Assembly: GCF_030219325.1 (NCBI RefSeq)
Contig: NZ_CP126625.1
Coordinates: 2,282,857 to 2,346,856, forward strand
Source of the DNA: Geothrix sp.
GTDB taxonomy: Bacteria; Acidobacteriota; Holophagae; Holophagales; Holophagaceae
DNA length: 64,000 nt
Direction of reading: 5' to 3'
Below, one piece after another: positions 50,547-52,010 of this stretch. The stretch's first letter is position 1. The number at the start of each line of letters is the position of its first letter. The notes below the pieces were generated by a model. The model did no database searches. It saw nothing but the letters and a program-made list of their open reading frames with translations, and was not told the DNA's origin. The translations under genes were made by a program, and so were the position numbers.

Positions 50547-50738
50547 CAACTTTCATTTTTCATGGGTTAGTCGGCGTACAGACACAGAAACGGGAGAAAT
50601 GGGCTGTCAGGGCCTCTCCACGCCATCGGCCCTGGAAAACCCCCATTCCGTTGATGCTCAGATGACCTGGCCCCGGTCGTCACGCTATTCAGGCTCTTCC
50701 GGAAGGCATCCGATGAAGGGGCATCTGACGAGGTTTCC

Positions 50739-51401
50739 ATGTCCGACGACGCTGCCGGCCCCAAGAAGAGCCCCATGAAACTGATCATCATCATCGTGGT
50801 CGCCCTGGCGGTCCTAGGTGGTGGTGGCTTCGGCACCATGCTGTTCCTCAAGAAACGCGCAGCCGCCAAGGCCGCTGAAGCCGTTGAAGCCGTTGAAGCC
50901 GAAAAGGCCAAGACCGAAGGTTCGGCCGCCGAGGGCGCCCCGGGCGGCGAGGCTGCCCACGGCGCCGAGGAATCCGACGATTGCGGAGACACGGGCGAGA
51001 AGAAGGAGGGCGGCGGGCACGGCGGCCCCGAGGCGGCTCCGGTCATGGTCCTGACGCGCACCGTGAACCTGATGGGGCCGCGGAGGAACGCCTTCCTCCG
51101 CTGCGAGCTGAACATCCTGTTCTGCGATACCGAGCTGGGCAAGCTGGTGTCCGGGGAGAAGCCTTCGCCTGAAAAGAGCCTCATCCAGTCCATCGTGCTC
51201 GGAACCCTGTCGGGCAAGAGCGTGGAGGAGGCCTCCGATGCCGAGTCCCGGGAAGCCCTGGCCAAGGAGATGAAGGACAAGCTGAACGAGCAGTTCAAGC
51301 CCCATCCCCCCAAACCGGGCGAGAAAGAAGATCCCAAGCACAAGAAACCCAAGCGGCCCATCAAGAGCGTGCTCATTGTGGACTGGGCCATCCAGCAATG
51401 A
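50739..51401 (+). CDS. fliL: Flagellar basal body-associated protein FliL
   Basis: This 220-aa inner-membrane protein surrounds the stator and supports motor torque. A cytoplasmic N-terminus with KKSPMKLIIIIVVALAVLGG (TM about 13-35) leads to an Ala/Glu/Gly-rich linker. The stomatin-like periplasmic domain (about 105-220) ends IKSVLIVDWAIQQ. The linker is longer than usual and the periplasmic domain carries a Pro/Lys-rich insert. It precedes fliN by 72 nt. Confidence 0.85.
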   Translation: MSDDAAGPKKSPMKLIIIIVVALAVLGGGGFGTMLFLKKRAAAKAAEAVEAVEAEKAKTEGSAAEGAPGGEAAHGAEESDDCGDTGEKKEGGGHGGPEAAPVMVLTRTVNLMGPRRNAFLRCELNILFCDTELGKLVSGEKPSPEKSLIQSIVLGTLSGKSVEEASDAESREALAKEMKDKLNEQFKPHPPKPGEKEDPKHKKPKRPIKSVLIVDWAIQQ

Positions 51402-51410
51402 CCGGCCATC

Positions 51411-51426
51411 TGGCACGGGCGTTGCG
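51411..51426 (+). promoter_or_regulatory. Sigma-54-type promoter upstream of fliN
   Basis: TGGCACG (51411-51417), 4 nt, then TTGCG (51422-51426) matches the -24/-12 consensus TGGCACG-N4-TTGCA, with GG and GC separated by exactly 10 nt. It lies in the short fliL-fliN gap, about 48 nt before the fliN start. Confidence 0.7.
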
Positions 51427-51473
51427 ATGACGGTGGCCTGGGTCCATGCTTTGACAGGACTTCGGGGAGGTAC

Positions 51474-51779
51474 ATGGCCAAGCGGGGAGAGCGGATCGAG
51501 GGCGATCGCGTGCTCAGTTTCGAGCAGGTGGTGGCTGAGGTCATGCCCTTCATCGACACGCCCCTCCGGCTGGAGATCCAGCTGGGCCAGGCGCGGATGA
51601 CCATCCGCGACCTGCTGGACCTGGAACCCGGTTCCCTGGTGGAACTCAAGAAGAGCGCCGGTGAACCCATGGATGTGCTCTGCAAGGACCGGGTGCTCAT
51701 CCGGGGTGAGGTGACGGTCCTGGAGGACAGCCTTGGTCTCCGGGTCACTGAGATCGTGGATTCCGACCGCAGGGTCTGA
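51474..51779 (+). CDS. fliN: Flagellar motor switch protein FliN
   Basis: This 101-aa protein is a minimal SpoA/FliN domain: VMPFIDTPLRLEIQLGQARM, TIRDLLDLEPGSLVELKKSAG, and the conserved VLIRGEVTVLEDSLGLRVTEIV. FliN forms the bottom of the C-ring and contacts CheY and the export ATPase complex. GGGAGG lies 7 nt upstream of ATG 51474. A sigma-54-type promoter precedes it, so it can be expressed apart from fliL. No other flagellar genes lie nearby. Confidence 0.9.
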   Translation: MAKRGERIEGDRVLSFEQVVAEVMPFIDTPLRLEIQLGQARMTIRDLLDLEPGSLVELKKSAGEPMDVLCKDRVLIRGEVTVLEDSLGLRVTEIVDSDRRV

Positions 51780-51783
51780 TGTT

Positions 51784-52010
51784 CTCCGGGGGTTCCGCGC
51801 TGCGCGCACACCCCCGGACCCCCGCGCTCAGCCCGGCGGAGCCGGCCCTCGCTTGATCCTCTCCGGGAGTTCTGTGCTGCGCGCACACCTCGGACCCCCG
51901 TGCCCCGCCCGGCGGAGCCGGCCCTCGCTTGATCCTCTCCGGGAGTTCTGTGCTGCGCGCACACCTCGGACCCCCACGCTCAGCCCGGCGGAGCCGGCCT
52001 TCGCTGAACC
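51784..52010 (+). repeat. Three tandem 76-77-bp repeats
   Basis: Copies start at 51784, 51861 and 51937, each beginning CTCCGGG and including GCTGCGCGCACAC and CCCGGCGGAGCCGGCC. Copies 2 and 3 are nearly identical; copy 1 has several substitutions. The block fills the whole fliN-thiD gap. A related, shorter sequence (CTCTCCGGAGGTTCCACGCT) occurs at 63016 within a terminator, so the unit belongs to a dispersed intergenic repeat family. Confidence 0.8.

Follow-up and report, generated by a model that had tools for sequence, protein, structure and literature searches.

The window, by which the whole stretch of DNA analyzed is meant (64 kb; G000:C1:2282857-2346856), contains a fliL-fliN pair on the forward strand. 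The fliL gene (positions 50739 to 51401, + strand) encodes 220 amino acids and was assigned through PF03748 (E value, 2.2e−11) as the sole FliL match in the genome; no clear dip in synonymous change was seen by eye along it. The fliN gene (51474 to 51779, + strand) encodes 101 amino acids and matched PF01052 (E value, 1.3e−20), with a score against TIGR02480 of 82.7 bits, just below the cut-off of 84.05. A putative ribosome-binding site, GGGGAGG, precedes it at 51464 to 51470 (+ strand), and relatives of this FliN at 97 to 98% identity were from Geothrix sp. and Holophagaceae. FliMN_C matches in the genome numbered three in all, and fliM and a gene for a 308-amino-acid FliY-like protein were located in the main flagellar cluster, 1.5 Mb from the orphan fliL-fliN pair. 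Between fliN and a phosphomethylpyrimidine-kinase gene, a GC-rich 76-bp tandem repeat of 2.9 copies was found (51783 to 52005).

Nine nucleotides past the fliL stop codon and 47 nt ahead of the fliN ATG lies TGGCACGGGCGTTGCG (51411 to 51426, + strand), which reads as a −24/−12 sigma-54 element, TGGCACG-GGCG-TTGCG, and is predicted to drive fliN. It matches TGGCACG-N4-TTGC exactly, with the GG-N10-GC spacing. An earlier note on this DNA had placed such a near-consensus promoter between fliL and fliN; its sequence and coordinates proved exact, and the Pfam matches confirmed both flanking genes. From the usual sigma-54 geometry, transcription would start approximately 12 nt past the −12 C, at 51437 (+ strand), and one PF04552 match identified rpoN in the genome. 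The exact TGGCACG-N4-TTGC occurred once in the window, compared with a mean of 0.06 in 100 dinucleotide shuffles (six with at least one match) and a base-composition expectation of 0.04 per window. The same expectation gives ∼2.5 per 3.73-Mb genome, and because that many chance matches are expected, the exact match was treated as suggestive and conservation as the deciding test. With three mismatches allowed there was no excess (68 matches in the window against 90 expected), and a loose-consensus scan was set aside as uninformative at 67% G+C (281 matches, fewer than the 359 of the reversed control).

A search for relatives returned 63 loci, and the window was aligned with 40 Holophagaceae loci (41 rows); L046 (partial), the insect-gut Holophagales loci L041 to L043, the more distant L045 and L047, and loci from other phyla were left out. 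The pattern TGGCA[CT][GAT]-N4-TTGC (TGGCA-N6-TTGC) was present in 39 of the 41 fliL-fliN gaps, and the two deviating gaps (L038 and L039) retained GG-N10-GC, which is thus found in all 41. Position 6 of the site was always C or T, and position 7, with one exception among the 39, was G or A, variation of the kind that a sigma-54 element is expected to tolerate. Fitch changes on the fliN tree, column by column along the site, were 2, 0, 0, 0, 1, 10, 8, 13, 4, 4, 10, 0, 0, 0, 0, and 10. The core columns therefore changed 0 to 2 times, compared with a mean of 10.1 (range, 2 to 17) at 16 fourfold-degenerate fliN sites and 10 to 21 just upstream of the site. Five of the left-out loci were inspected (L041 to L043, L045, and L047), and no such element was found at fliN. 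The insect-gut loci (L041 to L043, from G075, G074, and G073, respectively) kept the fliL-fliN arrangement without the sigma-54 site and without the downstream box described below.

Downstream of the site, a second conserved block, GTCCATGCTTTGAC (51442 to 51455, + strand), forms the pseudo-palindrome GTC-N8-GAC and is proposed, from its conservation and spacing, to be the site of an activator (an enhancer-binding protein). The earlier note had missed this box, its near-fixed spacing, and the likely activator. Counted from the −12 C, the box began at 17 in 36 of 39 gaps (at 18 in two and at 16 in one), and the start codon lay 60 to 81 from the site in the same gaps. A single match to GTCNNTNNNTTGAC occurred in the window, at the box (0.19 expected). 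Among 44 distinct box sequences, GTC was invariant and GAC nearly so (G in 44, A in 42, C in 42); inner positions 5 and 10 were complementary in 34, or in 40 counting G-T pairs. The box ends changed 0 to 1 times on the fliN tree, the spacer 6 to 18 times, and the five bases 3′ of the box, fairly conserved, 4 to 5 times each. Of the 13 defined positions in the published FleQ consensus GTCaNTAAAtTGAC of Pseudomonas aeruginosa (PMC6120874), the box agreed at 9, for which a single random 14-mer has a chance of 0.0003. Since that source describes matches to the consensus as unreliable predictors, the resemblance is taken only as a lead. In genus g7 the box lay at +27 (G060), +29 (G061), and +18 (G063, locus L034); an exact shift of one helical turn, considered for G060, was dropped given the position in G061, and the shift is better described as roughly one turn. 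A mini-ORF inside the box (ATG-CTT-TGA) was also rejected, its ATG not being kept in divergent genera.

Site and box were then combined in a strict pattern (TGGC-N7-TTGC-N15..17-GTC-N8-GAC) and scanned in 77 family genomes, which overlap with the 41 gaps and are not an independent sample (L033, L038, L039, and L041 to L043 are from G053, G064, G050, G075, G074, and G073, respectively). The pattern was found in 49 genomes, in 45 of them at fliN. A short FliN was encoded in 55 of the 77, and comparison of coordinates placed the strict pattern at fliN in 45 of these 55. Among the ten other short-FliN genomes, G050, G051, G053, and G064 retained a relaxed layout, G060 and G061 had a good site with the box further away, and G073 to G075 lacked the element despite having fliN; the tenth, G026, fell outside the comparison, as its short FliN starts at residue 51 (locus L046, matching from base 1). 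In FliN-less genomes strict-pattern matches were chance-like only (G008 and G049). Second site-plus-box matches in G066 and G070 were rejected, as they overlapped the 3′ end of an unrelated coding gene, beyond which lies a terminator-like hairpin. A looser pattern (spacing, 6 to 30) identified fliN and one chance-like match in the genome of the window, and two matches in the reversed control; it was blind to the flhA promoter, as TTGC was required.

Comparison of the flagellar clusters of G000, G011, G035, and G033 revealed a related arrangement at flhA, where TGGCAY-N5-TCGC is followed by GTCGGTATGTTGAC at the spacing of 17 seen at fliN. Layout and spacing recurred in 18 of 18 genomes, comprising these 4 and 14 hand-picked additions from five genera (G053 reads CGGCAC), with a scoring that slightly favored a spacing of 17. 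By gene order, flhA is the first gene of an operon flhA-flhF-flhG-fliA-fliM-fliY. The flhA ATG lies inside the box, the 3′ half of which overlaps codons M-L-T, so half of the box could reflect coding constraint. The leucine codon was TTG in 13 of the 18 genomes although their G+C is high, a hint that more than coding constrains it; even so, the flhA box is weaker evidence than the flhA site. With the ATG within the box, the leader of the predicted flhA transcript would be only ∼10 to 12 nt (L142:14822, − strand, and 17 relatives). No other conserved block was seen by eye in the 230 bp 5′ of flhA in four genomes.

A further sigma-54-like site, CGGCA[CT]G-N4-CTGCA, was present in four of four genomes before a flgB-like rod gene (PF00460) located upstream of fliE and fliF. 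Its dyad, CCGGG-N-CCCGG, occupies the same place as the fliN box but differs from it, which means that the flagellar promoters do not share a single box. An invariant tail, CATTCTGCAGGGTG, was observed between this dyad and the start codon (L142:1293-1358, − strand; L248, L244, and L247). Weaker sigma-54-like sites were found in the genome of the window before flgH (TGGCACTGTCCTCGCC; L134:9366-9381, + strand) and a flagellin gene (CGGCACGGATGCTGCC; L132:16219-16234, + strand), with another weaker candidate ahead of flgD. TGGCCC-N5-TTGCT before fliA was discarded, as its conservation is explicable by the Leu-Ala-Arg-Gln-Leu codons of flhG. The earlier note had proposed looking for similar sites before flagellar genes; across the flagellar clusters compared, they were recovered at flhA (18/18) and flgB (4/4), which supports its idea of a flagellar regulon. 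Its class-II reading likewise gains support, given that flhA shares the fliN layout and flgB has a sigma-54-like site. The genome also encodes a FliA/WhiG-family sigma factor, above the cut-off. In one genome TAAAGTTT-N11-GTCCGAAG was found upstream of one flagellin gene, which by likeness to the sigma-28 consensus may be a sigma-28 element for a late gene. A conserved ATTCAGGC...TCCGATGA (also ATTCAGGC...CCGATGAA) lies 5′ of fliL (50687 to 50716, + strand) and recurs, by eye, in most of 23 fliL upstream regions (23 of the 41 rows); by likeness to the same consensus it is a sigma-28-like promoter candidate. A late fliL next to an early fliN would account for fliN needing a promoter of its own.

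The near-invariance of its key letters across most of the family, a second box at a near-fixed distance, and a sister promoter before another flagellar gene leave little doubt that the element at 51411 to 51426 is a functional RpoN (sigma-54) promoter that serves fliN apart from fliL. This reading comes from comparative sequence data, and both RpoN dependence and the start site are predictions.

Of the 21 PF00158 matches listed for the genome, 17 were full AAA+ activator domains. The best activator candidate for the fliN box was a REC-AAA+-HTH_8 protein of 505 amino acids with a Fis-type HTH and a GAFTG loop, encoded at G000:C1:753731-755245, 1.58 Mb from the fliN promoter. Its receiver domain was clear (Response_reg; E value, 3.3e−31), and no FleQ domain was detected by Pfam at an E value of 0.001. 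It scored 388 bits against the FlbD model and 317 against FlgR, neither reaching the cut-off of 750, and scored higher against the AtoC and NtrC models, likewise below cut-off. The candidate may thus work like an FlrC- or FlbD-type activator, though it is not filed as one. No histidine kinase, FlrB-like or other, was found among the six neighboring ORFs searched. Just upstream on the same strand (L253:8284-9000, − strand; G000:C1, ∼755284-756000), a 238-amino-acid protein with a Fis-type HTH (PF02954) is encoded, in which a P-loop-like stretch was also seen by eye. Binding of the candidate to the fliN box is presumed from the comparisons that follow.

Here, "flagella-less" denotes the absence of both FliN and FliY matches, the two proteins on which the label is based. 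When the activators of G000 were compared with those of the flagella-less G006 and G012, four had no orthologue in either (L104, L107, L114, and L115), and L106 was left unpaired as its best match was shared with L102. Eleven of the twelve paired activators kept loop 1, and the exception was the REC-AAA+-HTH_8 candidate. The candidate was then tabulated in 43 of 71 genomes with a match, chosen by hand so as to include the FliN-less genomes that had a complete close orthologue and to cover a range of genera. Fourteen of the 20 genomes without FliN or FliY were included; of the others, G001 to G003 had no match, G047 and G054 had distant paralogues, and G076 a partial copy. All 29 tabulated flagellated genomes, among them G025 with a FliY but no FliN match, retained the AFTG loop together with the FREDL arginine (G033 reads SAFTG). 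The activator of one flagellated genome bin (G063, L284) had an odd Walker A motif, GTGPE instead of GTGKE. Both features were gone in 13 of the 14 FliN-less genomes. The exception, G045, has an intact activator and no FliN match; it is an assembly of 530 contigs near-identical to the flagellated G038.

Among the 13 decayed activators, the receiver aspartate was missing from 8, the Walker B glutamate from 8, and the Walker A lysine from 5, and these losses fell differently in two groups that formed separate clades (FastTree support of 1.0 each). In eight Geothrix-like FliN-less genomes, the Walker B glutamate was lost throughout, the Walker A lysine was kept, and the receiver aspartate was kept in five. 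In five FliN-less genomes of genus g6, the Walker A lysine and receiver aspartate were lost and the Walker B glutamate was kept. Identity to G000 in the Geothrix-like clade was 0.96 in the HTH and 0.75 in the AAA+ domain, compared with a similar HTH value and 0.96 for AAA+ in flagellated relatives; in g6 it was 0.75 and 0.45, compared with 0.89 and 0.87 in flagellated members of other genera. The HTH is therefore near-unchanged in decayed activators of the Geothrix-like clade and less strictly retained in g6. It is possible, at slightly less than even odds, that after two separate flagellar losses the decayed protein became a sigma-54-independent DNA-binding regulator. Such a change, with the HTH kept, would imply that the intact activator also serves a purpose outside the flagellar system, like FleQ, which is reported to act on non-flagellar genes as well.

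Taken together, we consider it likely that the orphan fliN has a sigma-54 promoter opened by an AAA+ protein bound at the downstream box, tied to flhA and flgB by their sites, with the REC-AAA+-HTH protein as the candidate. RpoN-RNA polymerase would sit as a closed complex on the −24/−12 element, and a dimeric enhancer-binding protein would occupy GTC-N8-GAC, at approximately +6 to +19, and open the complex from downstream, in the manner of FlrC in Vibrio and of FleQ at some Pseudomonas promoters. The flhA layout and flgB site would link the orphan fliN, whose product shares the C-ring with FliM and FliY, to early flagellar operons. Points against the proposal include the intact activator of FliN-less G045, the fliN genes without the element in G073 to G075, the receiver aspartate kept in five of the eight Geothrix-like genomes, and the lack of a histidine kinase among the six ORFs searched around the activator gene.

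The main rival accepts the sigma-54 promoter and assigns the box to a different protein (a repressor, a coactivator, or another enhancer-binding protein), with the candidate acting elsewhere in the flagellar regulon. The 17 full activator domains leave room for this, as do the four activators of G000 lacking orthologues in G006 and G012, which could be flagellar too; the box is also FleQ-like, yet the candidate has Response_reg and no FleQ domain, and the flgB dyad differs. However, none of the 11 other paired activators decays with flagella, and we regard this rival as possible but distinctly less probable than binding by the candidate. It is doubtful, more so than a different binding protein, that the conserved block downstream acts as an RNA hairpin of the 5′ untranslated region, for stability or translation, rather than as a DNA site. 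The longest stem across the box averaged 5.05 bp, compared with 3.85 bp in flank shuffles (0 of 300 reached it), and L038 and G065 folded with stems of 10 and 11 bp. Against this, the mean folding z over 48 leaders was only −0.87, the position of the box is tied to the promoter rather than to the start codon, and in the two displaced g7 genomes it moved by roughly one helical turn. The flhA region keeps the GTC-N8-GAC core but has no GGAC at the position corresponding to that in the fliN leader. Four Rfam matches were returned at E values of 2 to 8, all far under the gathering scores. Some room for an RNA role is left by the rather conserved five bases after the box and by flank pairing above the shuffled controls. 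That the consensus is a functionless chance match, with fliN read through from fliL, is very hard to credit: some 2.5 exact matches are indeed expected per genome, and no terminator-like hairpin was seen by eye between fliL and the site, but the core columns are conserved against a saturated background and the strict pattern recurs at fliN in 45 of 55 short-FliN genomes.

The sequence evidence points to a sigma-54 flagellar tier in Acidobacteriota (Holophagaceae). No description of such a tier was recognized among the best matches of full-text literature searches, and "Acidobacteria" was absent from the main texts of two sigma-54 surveys. The fliN promoter is likewise undescribed in the excerpted text of PMC6120874, PMC10723142, PMC6424431, PMC12316311, PMC3930126, PMC3162934, PMC6504787, PMC10274813, and PMC9927559. 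Site plus box provides a simple signature for regulon finding in genomes without transcript data, and one testable activator is named, whose decay in relatives without flagella offers a natural experiment on sigma-54 activators changing jobs. The promoter is of a known type, and the decay of the activator is the more novel part.

One close likeness, in protein architecture and site position, is to the FlrC system of Vibrio cholerae, a response-regulator AAA+ activator of sigma-54 with downstream sites; according to PMC6504787, FlrC usually binds 3′ of the start, its sites are nonetheless true enhancers, and its targets include FliMN and FlgBCF. In contrast, the arrangement in this different phylum has one 14-bp dyad at a near-fixed 17-nt spacing and no FlrB-like kinase among the searched neighbors of the candidate. 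The box also resembles GTCaNTAAAtTGAC of the FleQ class-II promoters of Pseudomonas; certain FleQ sites are reported to be close to the RpoN site or 3′ of it (Jyot 2002), and a flhA promoter is reported to be sigma-54 dependent and FleQ activated (PMC6424431). The candidate departs from FleQ in carrying a canonical receiver domain and lacking the FleQ domain. The decayed activators recall the GAFTGA-less proteins Caulobacter NtrC, Rhodobacter NtrC, and Vibrio VspR, reported in part of PMC10274813 to act at sigma-70 promoters, in that the sigma-54 loop is lost and DNA binding is apparently kept, judging here from HTH conservation. They differ in that further catalytic residues have gone (Walker B glutamate in the Geothrix-like clade, Walker A lysine in g6) and in that the loss tracks that of flagella, in two clades within a single family.
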